From the NCBI GenBank assembly GCA_903937385.1, contig CAIZZF010000008.1:434001-498000 (forward strand): DNA of 64,000 bases, read 5' to 3'. The stretch's first letter is position 1. Each line of letters opens with the position of its first letter. The translations under genes and the position numbers were made by a program. Under the pieces are notes generated by a model, which was given only the letters and a program-made list of their open reading frames with translations, ran no database searches and was not told the origin of the DNA. Source of the stretch: an uncultured Holophagaceae bacterium (GTDB lineage Bacteria > Acidobacteriota > Holophagae > Holophagales > Holophagaceae). Below, in pieces: positions 57,982 to 62,634 of this stretch.

Positions 57982-58667
57982 CAGATTCCCCCGAATCGCC
58001 GTTCACGCTGAGCATAGTCCTCGAGGGCTTCCTTCAGCGCCGCGGGACCGAAATCCGGCCACAGAACATCCGTCATGTAGAGCTCAGCATATGCGGATTG
58101 CCAGAGCAGGAAGTTGGAGATGCGGTGCTCCCCGCTGGTGCGGATGAGCAGGTCGACGTCGGGCACCCCGGCCGTCCAGAGGCGCGCCCCCAGGGCGGCC
58201 TCGTCCACCTGGTCGGGGCGGAGGCCGTCTTCCACGCAGCGCCGGGCGGCCTGGGCCAACTCCAGGCGGGAGCCGTAGTTCACGGCCAGGTGGAAGGTCA
58301 TCCCGGTGTTGCCGGCGGTGGCCTCCTCGAGGGTCTTCACGTCTGCCTGGATGCCCCCGGGCATGCCCCGGAGGTCTCCCAGGTGCTGAAAGCGAATGCC
58401 CTTCCGTGCGAGCTGGTGGACGAACATGCGCAGGTACATCCGCAGGAGGGCCATGAGCGCCGCCACCTCGGCGGGGGGGCGCTTCCAGTTCTCGGTGGAG
58501 AAGGCATAGAGGCTCAGGTGCTGGATGCCCTCGTCAGAGGCTGCCTCCAGGATGCGCTCTACCGCCTGGACGCCGGCCTTGTGGCCCTTGATGCGCGCCC
58601 AGCCCCGCTGCGCCGCCCAGCGCCCATTGCCGTCCATGATGATGGCTACGTGGGTCGGTGCCGTCAT
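57981..58667 (-). CDS. uppS: Undecaprenyl diphosphate synthase
   Basis: A 228-aa cis-prenyltransferase producing the C55 lipid carrier for wall polymers. The start MTAPTHVAIIMDGNGRWAAQ holds the catalytic Asp12; STENWKRPPAEV, LAVNYGSR and DLLIRTSGEHRISNFLLWQ are the other conserved regions. No ribosome site precedes the ATG (58667). Instead, a short ORF ends with a 4-base ATGA overlap, and the first 11 codons are themselves copied in tandem upstream. Translation may depend on coupling to those short ORFs. Confidence 0.95.
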   Translation of the reverse strand: MTAPTHVAIIMDGNGRWAAQRGWARIKGHKAGVQAVERILEAASDEGIQHLSLYAFSTENWKRPPAEVAALMALLRMYLRMFVHQLARKGIRFQHLGDLRGMPGGIQADVKTLEEATAGNTGMTFHLAVNYGSRLELAQAARRCVEDGLRPDQVDEAALGARLWTAGVPDVDLLIRTSGEHRISNFLLWQSAYAELYMTDVLWPDFGPAALKEALEDYAQRERRFGGI

Positions 58668-58774
58668 CGAGTGCCCAGGGGGGAGAGGAAGGCGGACTGA
58701 GCCGCGTGGCCGGCCTCGCGTATGCCTGGAGGGCATACCGAGATGATGATGGCTACGTGTGTCGGTGCCGTCAT
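58664..58774 (-). CDS. Short ORF immediately upstream of uppS (repeat unit)
   Basis: A 36-codon frame starting with the uppS-like MTAPTHVAII and continuing through ISVCPPGIREAGHAA to LSPLGTR. Its TGA (58664-58666) overlaps the uppS ATG as ATGA. It has no ribosome site of its own. It is best seen as a product of tandem duplication that may act as a leader ORF; whether a peptide is made is unknown. Confidence 0.35.
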   Translation of the reverse strand: MTAPTHVAIIISVCPPGIREAGHAAQSAFLSPLGTR

Positions 58775-58881
58775 CGCGTGCCCAGGGGGGAGAGGGAGGC
58801 GGGCTGAGCCGCGTGGCCGGCCTCGCGTATGCTCGGAGAGCATACCGAGAAGATGATTGCGACGTGGGTCGGTGCCGTCAT
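58771..58881 (-). CDS. Second short ORF in the uppS leader (repeat unit)
   Basis: A 36-codon frame, MTAPTHVAIIFSVCSPSIRE then AGHAAQPASLSPLGTR, nearly the same as the next short ORF. Its TGA overlaps that ORF's ATG by four bases. The reading frame is intact despite several base differences between units, but the sample is too small to prove selection for coding. Confidence 0.3.
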   Translation of the reverse strand: MTAPTHVAIIFSVCSPSIREAGHAAQPASLSPLGTR

Positions 58882-58982
58882 CGTATGCCTGAGGGAGAAG
58901 GGGGCCGAGCCGCGTGGCCAGCCTCGCGGTGGCCTCGGGAGCCCGCCAGAGGGATAAGCCTGGAGCGGATCTGAACGGTCAT
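58878..58982 (-). CDS. First short ORF in the uppS leader (degenerate unit)
   Basis: A 34-codon frame beginning MTVQIRSRLI and containing HREAGHAARP, which matches REAGHAA of the other two. Its TGA overlaps the next ATG by four bases. Its ATG at 58982 lies in a similar context (CGATGAC), suggesting a worn fourth copy. It would be the entry point for ribosomes if the chain is translated; no clear ribosome site is visible. Confidence 0.25.
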   Translation of the reverse strand: MTVQIRSRLIPLAGSRGHREAGHAARPPSPSGIR

Positions 58983-59115
58983 CGCGCACTGAAAATGTCG
59001 ACAAAATTCCAAAAGATAATGCTAACACGTGGGTTGCCGTTGAGAGGGGAGAGGCTGGTCTCCCCCGCGACCCATCATGGTAGGCTTTAGCCCATCCTTT
59101 TTCCTGGCAAAACAC

Positions 59116-61482
59116 ATGGTTCAGTTCAATACGCGAGGCAATGAGATTCTGCTCAAACTGGTCTATTACGGGCCGGGTCTCAGCGGTAAGACCACCAACC
59201 TGCAGTCCCTGCACGCCATGTGCTCCGACGCGCAGCGGGGGGAGATGTTCTCTGTCAACACCCAGGAAGACCGCACGCTCTTCTTCGACCTGCTGCCCAT
59301 CAACCTCGGCTACATCTACGGCAATGCCATTCACCTCCAGATCTACACCGTGCCTGGCCAGGTGCAGTACGACGCGAGCCGGCGGGTGGTCCTGGGGGGT
59401 GCGGACGGGGTCGTGTTCGTGGCGGATTCCTGCGAGTCCAAGATGCAGGACAACGTGGACTCGCTCTCGAATCTGTATCACAACCTCAATGCCAATCGGC
59501 TGAACATCAAGCAGATCCCCTTTGTCATCCAGTACAACAAGCGAGACCTTCCGGACGCCATGGCCGTGGGGGTCATGAACCGCCGACTGAACTTCCGTAG
59601 CGTGCCCTACTTCGAATCCGTCGCCAACCGCGGCACCGGCGTGCTGGACACCTTCCTCTCCATCACCCGGGAGACCGTCGGCTACACGTTCAAGAAGTAC
59701 CACCTCGACAAGAAGATCAAGGACTTCGATGAGATGTTGAACCTCATCGACGCCAACGTCCGGACGAGCATGCGGGAGCTGCCGCCGCCTGAGCCGGGAC
59801 CCTCGGTGTCCGCCATCGAGACGACAGTACTGAGACACAGCAACGTGAGCGTGGCCGACCTCCTGCCAGGCAAGGTCGCGGATGCGCACGAGCTGCTGGA
59901 AGACGCCCTCAAGTCCAACATGGAGACCGCCCGCCTCTACTCTGAGCTCAAGCAGATGAAGGAGGCTCTGGAGAAGAAGAACGAGGAACTGAGCGCGCTC
60001 TACTCCCAGTTGGATCGGGCCAACCAGGACAACCTCAAGACCCGCCGCTACCTCGAAGGGCTGGTGCAGAACATCGGGGAAGCGGTCATCTCCTACTCGC
60101 CTGACGGCAAGATCCTCACCTGGAACATGGCGGCAGAGCGCATCTTCGGGTATTCACGGCCCGAGATCGTGGGCAGGAGCATGGCCCAGCTGACGCCGGA
60201 TCACCTGCTTGGGGAGCTGGAGCAGGTGGCCCAGCAGGTGGCCCGGGGTCAGGTCATCCGGGGGGTGGTCACGACCCGGATGCGCAAGGGGGGCATCCCC
60301 TTCCCGGCCAACATCACCTATGCCCCCGTCCGGGGCAGCGACGACCGGGTGCTGGCCTTTTCCGCCCTGGTCCGGGACACGAGTGAGCAGAAGGATCTCC
60401 GGGAGCGGCTTGACCATTCCCAGAAGCACGAGGCGCTGGGTCGGCTGGTGCCCACCCTCTTTCATGAGGCTGCCAACCGCCTGACCCCCGTCTTCCTGGA
60501 AGCGCAAAGGCTGGCTGAAGCCGGCAAGGATTCTGAGCCGGTCGACCGCCTGGTGAAGGCTGTGAGTTCCATCCAGGACCTGCTGCTTCCCCTGCAGACC
60601 CTCCTCAACCCGCCCGCGCCCGTGCGGACGCCCGTCCAGCTCAATGAGCTTGTGGCGGAGGTCGCGGCGCTGGTTCATCCCAAGGCGCAGGAGGTGGGTG
60701 TTTCGGTCGAGTTGAACCTGGACCCGAGCCTGCCGGTGTCCGACCTGGACGCGGGACTCCTGCGGCAGGCTCTCACCAGCCTGCTCCAGAGCAGCCTCCA
60801 GTCCCTGACCCTCCGCCCCGTCAAGCAGCTGCGAGTGAGCACCCGGTTCTCCGGGGACAGCCTCCACGTGGTGGTGCAGGACAGTGGCCCACTGATTCCT
60901 GAAGGCCGACAGGCCGAGCTGTTTGATGCGGCCGAGATCACCAGCACCGAGGGCATGGGGCTTCCCGTCGCCGATACCCTCTGTCGGCAGCACGGTGGCC
61001 GCCTGAGCGTGCAGAGCCAGGAAGGGTCGGGCAACGCCTTCCTGATGGAAATCCCGCATGGGGTTGCCGCGCCCCGGGCGGTCTCGCCCAGTGGTGGGCT
61101 CCAGGGCAAGCGGGTCCTGGTGGTGGATGACGAATCCTTCCTCCTGGAATGCCTTGTGGACGCCCTCAGCGCCTGGGGTGTGGACGTCGCCTCCAGCACC
61201 CGGGGCGACGAAGCCATCGAGCAGCTTCAGCAGGGGACCTTCGACTTGATCGTCTCTGACATCCGCATGCCAGGGTTGTCAGGCGTCGAGCTGTATGACT
61301 GGCTGAAGGTCGAGCGGCCCGACATGACTCGGCGGATCCTCTACACGACGGGGGATTCCTTCGATACCAAGACGCGGGAGTTCCTGGAAACGAACCAGGT
61401 GCCCTACCTGGGTAAGCCCTTCGATCTAAAGCAACTCAAGCAAAGTCTTGAGCTCCTCCTAGGGAGTCCGGCGGAGGCGTGA
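59116..61482 (+). CDS. MglA-type GTPase fused to coiled coil, PAS, degenerate kinase and receiver domains
   Basis: A 788-aa multidomain protein. Residues 1-195 are an MglA-like Ras GTPase: P-loop GPGLSGKTT (Lys25), the MglA-specific TVPG at 78-81 in place of DxxG, and NKRD at 141-144. Then come a coiled coil (about 265-310), a PAS domain (about 312-422), a HisKA-like helix with His450 in LFHEAANRL, an HATPase-like region in which the N box is not recognisable and the G1 motif reads DSGPLIP, and a C-terminal receiver with phospho-acceptor Asp715 (DLIVSDIRMPG). MglA sets cell polarity in Myxococcus. ATG 59116 fits MglA starts; 59077 is an in-frame alternative. No mglB adjoins. Confidence 0.9.
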   Translation: MVQFNTRGNEILLKLVYYGPGLSGKTTNLQSLHAMCSDAQRGEMFSVNTQEDRTLFFDLLPINLGYIYGNAIHLQIYTVPGQVQYDASRRVVLGGADGVVFVADSCESKMQDNVDSLSNLYHNLNANRLNIKQIPFVIQYNKRDLPDAMAVGVMNRRLNFRSVPYFESVANRGTGVLDTFLSITRETVGYTFKKYHLDKKIKDFDEMLNLIDANVRTSMRELPPPEPGPSVSAIETTVLRHSNVSVADLLPGKVADAHELLEDALKSNMETARLYSELKQMKEALEKKNEELSALYSQLDRANQDNLKTRRYLEGLVQNIGEAVISYSPDGKILTWNMAAERIFGYSRPEIVGRSMAQLTPDHLLGELEQVAQQVARGQVIRGVVTTRMRKGGIPFPANITYAPVRGSDDRVLAFSALVRDTSEQKDLRERLDHSQKHEALGRLVPTLFHEAANRLTPVFLEAQRLAEAGKDSEPVDRLVKAVSSIQDLLLPLQTLLNPPAPVRTPVQLNELVAEVAALVHPKAQEVGVSVELNLDPSLPVSDLDAGLLRQALTSLLQSSLQSLTLRPVKQLRVSTRFSGDSLHVVVQDSGPLIPEGRQAELFDAAEITSTEGMGLPVADTLCRQHGGRLSVQSQEGSGNAFLMEIPHGVAAPRAVSPSGGLQGKRVLVVDDESFLLECLVDALSAWGVDVASSTRGDEAIEQLQQGTFDLIVSDIRMPGLSGVELYDWLKVERPDMTRRILYTTGDSFDTKTREFLETNQVPYLGKPFDLKQLKQSLELLLGSPAEA

Positions 61483-61539: not shown

Positions 61540-62634
61540 ATGCAGCGAAGCTGGGCTATGACCTGGATCCTGGCCACGGGCCTGCTGGCCCAGGCGCCGT
61601 CCCCCGAGCCACCGTCCGTCCCTGTGACCCAGGCCCCCAAGCCGGAGCCGCCGCCGCCGCCGACGCCTGAAGCCACCAAGCCTGTTGAGGCCAAGGCCTT
61701 CGATCAGCAGCGGCCCACCCAGCGGAAGCTGGTCTATACCCTCCATCGGGCCGCCCTCTCCGCCCATGAGCTGGGCTACTACCGGAGCCACCCCAGGGTC
61801 GTGGAGGTGCGGACCATCCTCGGGGAGCTGCTGGCAGCCAAGCCCGTCCTGCCCGAGAAGGCCTCCGCCTCGCTGCCTGCGGTTGAGGCCTACCTTGCCC
61901 AGCTCCGGGCCAACCACGGCCTCTACGACACCACCGGCGCCAAGCTGCTGCTCGGCGGCACCTGGAAGGACCTCCAGGCCGCCGCCCGCGCTGCGGCCAA
62001 GGTCGGCCACCCGGGCCTCGAGCCGCGCCTGCTCAAGCTCAAGGGCCTGCTCTTCGACGCCAAGGTGGATGCGGTGGCCCCCAGCTGGGCTGAGCCCGTG
62101 GCCCCCGCCAAGGGCAAGAAGGCCAAGGCTGTGAAGGCGCCTGCCTCCCCCGAGGGTTTCGCCGAGCAGAAGGCCATCACGGCCCTCTGGGTGAAGCGCG
62201 CCCAGGCCTGGGTCGAGAACACCTCCCAGGAGGTGGAGATCAACGGGGAGAAGAAGAGCCGGCGGCTGCCCGATCCGGTGCAGACCAAGGCCCTGAATGA
62301 TCTGCTGGCCTGGCTGGACAAGGAGGACCTCGTCCTGCTGGGCGACCCGGCCTTCGGGTGGCTGGACCTGCGCCGCCTGGGCGCTGCGCCCGGCGCCGGC
62401 CTGCTGGCCCGGTCCGCCGACCTCGCCGCCGCCAAGGCGCCCGAGGGCGTCCCGGGCGAACTGGCGCTGCTGCCGATCTTCGAGCCGGTGCTGGGCGATA
62501 GCAAGTTCGCCCCGGGCGAGGAGAAGCGGGCCGTCCTGGTGGAGGTCAAGCAGGGCCCTGCCCCGGCGACGCTAGCCGAGCAGATGGCGGCCTTTGAGAA
62601 GCTGGGCCGCAGCCGGGAGCTGGAGGTCAAATAG
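61540..62634 (+). CDS. Exported protein of unknown function
   Basis: A 364-aa protein with an N-terminal hydrophobic segment (AMTWILATGLLAQAP) that looks like a signal peptide, then a long Pro/Ala/Lys-rich linker (about 20-50) and a mostly helical domain with RKLVYTLHRAALSAHELGYY and LRANHGLYDTTGAKLLLGG. The latter faintly recalls dipeptidyl-peptidase III-type proteins, but no HExxxH zinc motif is present. A GAGGAG site precedes the ATG. It follows the MglA fusion by 57 bp and may be co-transcribed. Confidence 0.7.
   Translation: MQRSWAMTWILATGLLAQAPSPEPPSVPVTQAPKPEPPPPPTPEATKPVEAKAFDQQRPTQRKLVYTLHRAALSAHELGYYRSHPRVVEVRTILGELLAAKPVLPEKASASLPAVEAYLAQLRANHGLYDTTGAKLLLGGTWKDLQAAARAAAKVGHPGLEPRLLKLKGLLFDAKVDAVAPSWAEPVAPAKGKKAKAVKAPASPEGFAEQKAITALWVKRAQAWVENTSQEVEINGEKKSRRLPDPVQTKALNDLLAWLDKEDLVLLGDPAFGWLDLRRLGAAPGAGLLARSADLAAAKAPEGVPGELALLPIFEPVLGDSKFAPGEEKRAVLVEVKQGPAPATLAEQMAAFEKLGRSRELEVK

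Follow-up and report, generated by a model that had tools for sequence, protein, structure and literature searches.

A conserved MglA GTPase fused to PAS, degenerate histidine kinase and receiver domains in Geothrix-type bacteria

Introduction

Can a Ras-like GTPase carry its own signaling regulators within a single chain, and what would such a protein do with them? The question is raised by a gene in the window analyzed here, a 64,000-nt stretch of DNA whose host is a Geothrix-type bacterium. Coupling of receiver domains to MglA is hard to study in Myxococcus xanthus because RomR, RomX, MglB and FrzZ are separate and dynamic. A conserved, soluble fusion chain that is present in cultured Geothrix renders this coupling testable with one purified protein and its point variants, and adds a group of MglA proteins set aside by length-filtered surveys. 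The small-GTPase set of Wuichet and Sogaard-Andersen (2014) was chosen at 150–240 aa, and that survey counted 488 MglA-subclade sequences, 449 of them shorter than 240 aa and hence 39 longer; kinase fusions of MglA are not described in the sections of the paper that were available (PMC4316618). A literature search limited to open-licence papers, some of them available in excerpt, returned none that deals with a fusion of MglA to a kinase or receiver, and no paper on MglA in Geothrix was found in the open-licence literature.

Results

A single conserved chain

The gene (59116..61482, plus strand, as are its domains and hyp364 below) is one unbroken reading frame with its ATG at 59116 and its stop at 61482, and encodes a 788-aa protein laid out as MglA, helix, PAS, DHp/CA pseudokinase and receiver (REC). 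The ATG at 59116 opens the MVQFN start that is kept in orthologs; an alternative longer ORF starts at 59077. Pfam profiles recognized Arf/Ras weakly (~67–186), PAS (313–421, 51.8 bits), HATPase_c (546–648, 46.9 bits) and Response_reg (667–778, 72.4 bits) in the fusion protein, with no match to HisKA (PF00512) even at E ≤ 1, and NCBIfam models placed the non-MglA remainder among hybrid histidine kinases of the AtoS/EspC sort, far under every equivalog cut-off. The fusion is confirmed, and the initial annotation, which had read an MglA, a PAS domain, an eroded kinase and a receiver with an intact Asp in one chain, was right in every part as judged by Pfam, the PDB match and the motif residues. 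An AlphaFold2 model reached a mean pLDDT of 78 with a pTM of 0.40, which makes the domain arrangement unreliable; folds were used per domain only and domain–domain contacts were left unused. The fusion has no PADLOC match as a defence system, and no tRNA genes were found within the 64-kb window.

The full-length chain recurs in 23/25 genomes of the genus (own genome included) at 71–100 percent identity, and these 23 orthologs are free of frameshifts and stops. Together with the single-contig assembly G020 among the 23 carriers, and with the conserved synteny across Holophagaceae, this rules out an assembly or annotation error joining two genes, the outcome that the initial annotation had named as fatal to its reading; we give such an artefact virtually no credence. 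An MglA-helix-PAS query matched 49/396 Acidobacteriota genomes at 1e-60 and, by our reading of the match rows, 40 of the 396 cover MglA through PAS, comprising 34/39 sampled members of the family plus another 6 genomes from the class. The five family genomes without the fusion are G402, which holds a fragment at a contig end only, G212 and G347, which are real absences, and G013 and G292. Natural deletion was considered for the latter two and rejected, G013 being devoid of any uppS match and G292 having uppS at a contig end; both look like assembly gaps. Neither G402 nor G011 (72 percent complete) was counted as a loss.

A scan of named genomes with the linker-PAS region of this type yielded 65 loci, nearly all from Holophagaceae/Geothrix MAGs or strains and including cultured G. 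fermentans, G. rubra, G. limicola and other Geothrix species, as well as Acanthopleuribacter pedis and Sulfidibacter corallicola. Complete proteins were recovered from 58/65 loci (none from L067, L103, L109, L116, L119 and L122, while L075 ran off its contig) and, with the window protein, make up the set of 59 orthologs used below, 50 of which enter structure alignment A3. Two Holophagaceae-type orthologs (L097, L100) came from MAGs titled Deltaproteobacteria and Bacillota, which are probably mislabelled or mixed bins.

In Holophagaceae the fusion and uppS are divergent neighbors, accompanied by cdsA, dxr and rseP, and the fusion is usually followed by hyp364, an OmpR-type regulator and a glycosyltransferase; Acanthopleuribacteraceae-type loci do not have the uppS setting. 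The downstream gene hyp364 (61540..62634), 57 nt after the fusion, has no Pfam or NCBIfam match, and its N-terminus resembles a secretion signal in appearance. Most Geothrix-clade loci have it next to the fusion, the g12 genomes lack the two together, and it is a possible operon partner, albeit not a universal one. Between uppS and the fusion, the window carries tandem ~107-nt direct repeats of the uppS 5' end and its upstream region (58636–58942), the second copy being 93 percent alike and the third weaker.

The GTPase and its connection to PAS

The GTPase domain spans residues 1–190 (59116..59685). Its best PDB match is M. xanthus MglA, aligned without gaps over residues 5–185 at 192 bits, and the modelled part superposes on the MglA structure 6h17 with a VIA Z of 22.2, so that likeness to MglA in sequence and fold extends over the whole G domain. 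All scored G-motif residues are intact in the window protein (K25, T26, R53, T54, Q82, N141, K142 and D144, plus T78); the first eight are retained in 59/59 orthologs and T78 is invariant among the 50 of the 59 in alignment A3. We take R53 and Q82 to have the catalytic-site roles that they have in MglA. Thr78 is given as a hallmark residue of MglA in the portion of PMC3000849 that was available. The protein departs from the MglA family in being no single-domain small GTPase of 150–240 aa, and in not being encoded with MglB, since the only Robl_LC7 gene of the genome adjoins a standalone mglA.

The GTPase is followed by a linker (aa 191–256; 59686..59883), variable in alignment A2 and modelled with low confidence (pLDDT below 50 at 225–245 and 248–251), and then by a single long helix of signaling type, predicted to run for 63 residues from MglA into PAS (aa 257–319; 59884..60072). 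This helix carries a conserved ELLxxAxxSNMETAxLY motif, and the alignments reveal a recognizable A-V-x-x-N-x-x-M-A-x-L pattern after MglA both in these proteins and in the GAF-type fusions described below. The PAS domain (aa 313–424; 60052..60387) was identified by Pfam PAS/PAS_9 and by PDB profile matches to PAS proteins. A haem-binding PAS, raised by matches to FixL and DosP, was set aside on a weak test, namely that the His of 'PDHLL' varies among the orthologs in alignment A2.

An eroded kinase module and an intact receiver

The DHp-like region (aa 427–505; 60394..60630) is supported by its match to HK853 and DivL and by two modelled helices at 445–468 and 474–497, the first of which holds His450 (60463–60465) as the phospho-acceptor expected of an active histidine kinase. 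The CA (HATPase)-like domain that follows (aa 506–655; 60631..61080) lacks the remaining signatures of such an enzyme: Ser replaces Asn at the two N-box sites (555 and 559), G1 reads DSGPL instead of DxGxG, its second Gly being gone, and G2 reads EGMGLP instead of GxGxG. We scored the same residues in the 88 HATPase_c domains that the own genome yields at E ≤ 1e-10, with an HMM seeded from a neighboring kinase. All seven motif residues were present in 73/88 of these domains and only 4/7 in the fusion, which sits in the lowest-scoring group of 6; three members of that group score low solely through an unaligned G2 box, and the 3/88 control domains with that feature may belong to other HATPase families. 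Another HATPase_c domain of the own genome (L251, G000:C13:77110-77427) has its N-box Asn replaced by His, no second G1 Gly and an altered G2, and is likely, on these residues, to be a second pseudokinase.

Counted over 48 sequences from Holophagaceae, the window protein among them, the second G1 Gly is found in 0/48, the G1 Asp in 47/48 and the two N-box Asn in 31/48 and 32/48; loss of both Asn is the state of the small clade to which the window protein belongs. Position 450 is His in 32, Asn in 11, Asp in 3 and Thr in 2. His450 occurs in 32/43 REC-bearing and 0/5 REC-less sequences. A rule that His450 goes with REC, suggested by the genus sequences and by the f3 sequences lacking REC, nonetheless fails, because the 11 Asn all occur in REC-bearing Holophagaceae proteins.

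The initial annotation had also named a competent HATPase fold as grounds for refuting its reading. The fold part of that concern was realized, with AlphaFold2 predicting a DHp of two helices and a CA domain of complete fold that match HK853 (Z 21.7), DivL (21.3) and RetS (19.2), PAS-kinase structures being top-ranked when Foldseek alone was used; the competence part is in doubt, as the ATP-site residues are lost. The predicted retention of the DHp-CA fold alongside loss of catalytic residues is what defines a DivL-like pseudo-histidine kinase, and on this model the ATP competence of the module appears doubtful, its catalysis having presumably been lost.

The receiver (aa 664–788; 61105..61479) has by sequence all that a phosphorylatable receiver needs, that is, the acidic pair (D671, D672), the acceptor Asp715 (61258–61260), T745 and K767, each of them kept in 43/43 REC-bearing Holophagaceae proteins. 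Mean pairwise identity within the genus ranges from 95 percent in MglA, the most constrained part, to 62 percent in CA, the least conserved domain. Nei-Gojobori dN/dS in 14 chosen ortholog pairs stayed below 0.12 in MglA and below 0.34 in REC, spanned 0.055–0.27 in CA and reached up to 0.47 in DHp within the clade of the window protein. As far as these pairs represent the family, the pattern across the fusion is one of constraint and not of free decay, and the purifying selection still acting on CA argues that its fold is in use.

Architecture variants and related fusions

MglA-helix-PAS-DHp/CA-REC is the layout of Geothrix and of most Holophagaceae. One Holophagaceae clade (5/48 sequences) has lost REC; the Acanthopleuribacteraceae-type orthologs (7 sequences) consist of MglA-helix-PAS-CA, have only a small part of the DHp helix left and carry no REC; and family f2 orthologs are MglA-helix-PAS alone (~407 aa), a state to which G323, inside Holophagaceae, is also reduced. 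All these layouts thus have MglA-helix-PAS as their constant core. The REC losses in the 5/48 sequences and in the Acanthopleuribacteraceae-type orthologs imply that input through the receiver is not universal and that PAS is the commoner regulator.

A second type of fusion, MglA-GAF-HisKA-HATPase, was counted in 33/396 Acidobacteriota genomes from about 10 families, a row being counted if its match began at residue ≤7 and extended to ≥670. Among 30 loci of this type (L255–L284), 29 gave an MglA-GAF-kinase protein, L261 lacking the MglA part. The N-box Asn, the G1 Asp and the second G1 Gly are each present in all 29/29 proteins, and the phospho-acceptor His is retained in 17/29, its 12 replacements being T (3), Q (2), A (2), E (2) and, for the rest, N, D or S. 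These opposite motif losses indicate that the His and the ATP-site residues were lost independently in the two fusion types.

A tree was built from 58 hand-chosen MglA domains, of which 20 were PAS-type, 29 GAF-type and 9 of other kinds; it is unrooted and has several long branches. The PAS type forms one group in it (100/99), and a split of 100/99 parts the kinase-fused rows from unfused or otherwise extended MglA, M. xanthus included. Within the bounds of an unrooted tree of chosen rows, the topology fits a single lineage of kinase-fused MglA. Two more MglA types with long C-terminal extensions were seen (L003:1204-2181 and L004:817-2067 in the own genome; L048–L050); the L004 type is acidic and in Acanthopleuribacteraceae-type genomes attains up to ~800 aa, and Pfam recognized no domain after MglA in the own-genome L003 and L004 copies. 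In another locus (L191:1110-2690, G102), MglA is directly followed by a degenerate DHp/CA-like stretch in which PAS or GAF could not be recognized by eye, making it a possible third kind of MglA-pseudokinase fusion.

MglB and pilus genes

The own genome encodes four MglA-domain genes and one Robl_LC7/MglB, which forms a canonical mglBA pair with the standalone mglA, as well as PilB and PilT above NCBIfam cut-offs. The presence of this pair means that the earlier suggestion of a fusion bypassing separate partners was not borne out. Indirect help for that idea comes from draft assemblies: G022 and G023 (96 and 98 percent complete) have the fusion, with standalone MglA and Robl_LC7 not found, and in G323 (92 percent complete) the MglA-PAS remnant is the sole MglA domain, again with no Robl_LC7, and PilB and PilT are over cut-off. 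The two g12 genomes G212 and G347 (1.2 Mb, 96–97 percent complete) have no MglA domain and no Robl_LC7, and at their locus the OmpR-type regulator stands directly after uppS, with the fusion and hyp364 gone. Each has one strong T2SSE ATPase, and the copy tested, that of G347, falls under both the PilB and PilT cut-offs. The co-loss of MglA with pilus motors in these two genomes, taken with G323, points to pili as the output, a link that comprises three genomes, two of which are reduced to 1.2 Mb and may have shed many genes together. According to the available part of PMC11580455, PilB of M. xanthus is brought to the pole by SgmX, which is itself recruited by MglA-GTP.

Discussion

The reading that we favor, at a probability just short of even, is that of a cis-regulated MglA in which a DivL-like pseudokinase scaffold relays the state of PAS and receiver to the GTPase and thereby tunes type IV pili. 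From the anatomy of the chain, its conservation, the predicted folds, the motif loss, the intact receiver and GTPase, and the co-loss with pilus motors in two genomes, we infer a direction of signaling, phosphorylation in trans and a pilus output as follows. A Ras-like GTPase switch would have its own regulators within the same chain; DHp/CA would no longer be an ATP-driven kinase and would be retained, as in DivL, as a folded scaffold; and REC would receive its phosphate from a different kinase or from a small-molecule donor. Its state, combined with the input sensed by PAS, would then run backwards from DHp/CA through PAS and the 63-residue helix to MglA, altering the nucleotide state, oligomer state or partner access of the latter, and the most likely output would be control of type IV pili, as for M. 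xanthus MglA. The fusion thus probably gives signals direct access to the GTPase, and the proposal of the initial annotation, a coupling of signal input and phosphorylation to the switch, is plausible from sequence. A cis version of DivL logic would account for the erosion of the catalytic boxes in a protein that retains its fold, receiver and GTPase: MglA is the most constrained part, and its G residues (59/59) and the REC residues (43/43) persist against 0/48 for the second G1 Gly. The conservation of the connecting helix between PAS and GAF fusions argues the same way, whereas the frequency of His450 in REC-bearing proteins exceeds what a pure scaffold needs. A bolder version, possible and distinctly less probable, depicts a phospho-gated Ras-like GTPase whose dead kinase in cis reads REC and switches MglA without a separate GAP, GEF or response regulator, the protein being a branch of an old Acidobacteriota MglA-kinase lineage that lost catalysis several times as the kinase body became a conformational relay.

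Three other readings have to be weighed against the cis-regulated MglA. Signals could flow in the usual direction, with MglA as the input. By its GTP state or by binding at a pole, MglA would then position the hybrid module or set its conformation, and REC would thereby be phosphorylated or dephosphorylated for another pathway as a phosphate sink or localized hub. MglA does stand at the N-terminus, where hybrid kinases carry their sensors, and PAS-HK-REC is the ordinary order of such kinases (own-genome matches cover 285–782 and the EspC-like NCBIfam match 322–778), but REC, which would be the output, is absent from 5/48 Holophagaceae, all 7 Acanthopleuribacteraceae-type and all f2-type proteins, all of which keep MglA-helix-PAS. 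A reading whose output is so often lost fits poorly, and we regard it as unlikely. Alternatively, phosphoryl chemistry may persist, either as exchange between His450 and Asp715 (an HPt-like relay or a phosphatase) or through an altered CA that still binds ATP, in which case the protein would be an atypical active hybrid kinase. The link of His450 to REC (32/43 versus 0/5), the N-box Asn in 31–32/48, the G1 Asp in 47/48 and the full HATPase fold of the model accord with it; Asn450 in 11 REC-bearing sequences and loss of the second G1 Gly in 48/48 do not, nor does the window protein, which is devoid of both N-box Asn and has 4/7 motif residues against 7/7 in 73/88 domains of its genome. We consider persisting chemistry rather unlikely too.

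Finally, the kinase part may be decaying, a remnant of an MglA-hybrid kinase that was formerly active, with MglA-PAS alone being of importance. CA is indeed the least conserved domain, DHp shows the highest dN/dS (0.47) in the clade of the window protein, and reduction to MglA-PAS is seen twice, in f2 and G323. Nevertheless, the 23 genus orthologs are full length with neither frameshift nor stop, the receiver residues stand at 43/43, and CA and DHp dN/dS are well under 1 in all 14 pairs, which makes decay improbable. Whichever reading is adopted, the repeated loss of either the phospho-acceptor His or the ATP boxes in MglA-fused kinases constitutes a natural experiment on what a pseudokinase is for.

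The fusion shares with MglA of M. xanthus and Thermus, whose GAP is MglB, the fold, the P-loop, R53, T54, T78, Q82 and the NKxD motif, and differs from these ~195-aa standalone proteins in its 788 aa, in having regulators in cis and in not adjoining mglB. The GAF-type Acidobacteriota fusions likewise have an N-terminal MglA, a similar linking helix, a sensor and a kinase module, but carry GAF for PAS and intact ATP-site residues, and no REC was seen in those scanned. A receiver governs MglA in the RomR/FrzZ regulation of M. xanthus, as we propose for the fusion; in the part of PMC3441718 that was available, however, RomR is a separate protein with an N-terminal REC followed by its own C-terminal region, whereas the REC of the fusion (664–788) is C-terminal in the GTPase chain, with nothing after it. 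Conservons of Actinomycetota (CvnA kinase, CvnB roadblock, CvnC and CvnD GTPase) also couple an MglA-family GTPase with a histidine kinase-like protein, as stated in sections of PMC13343842 and PMC4316618. They do so with four separate operon proteins, roadblock included and REC absent, and their CvnA8 autophosphorylates on His; the window locus is no such cvnA-D cluster, its genes next to the fusion being rseP, dxr, cdsA, uppS, hyp364, the OmpR-type regulator and the glycosyltransferase. RetS is matched to the fusion DHp-CA by fold only. The closest logic is that of DivL and other pseudo-histidine kinases, with which the fusion shares PAS, DHp and CA, lost or dispensable catalysis and, putatively, the reading of a receiver. 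In DivL, as reported in the accessible portion of PMC4211667, a phosphorylated receiver is read by the catalytic domains of the pseudokinase, which turn the flow of information around, and PAS domains set specificity. DivL has Tyr for His and reads DivK in trans, whereas the fusion often keeps the His, has eroded ATP boxes and carries both its receiver and its GTPase in cis.
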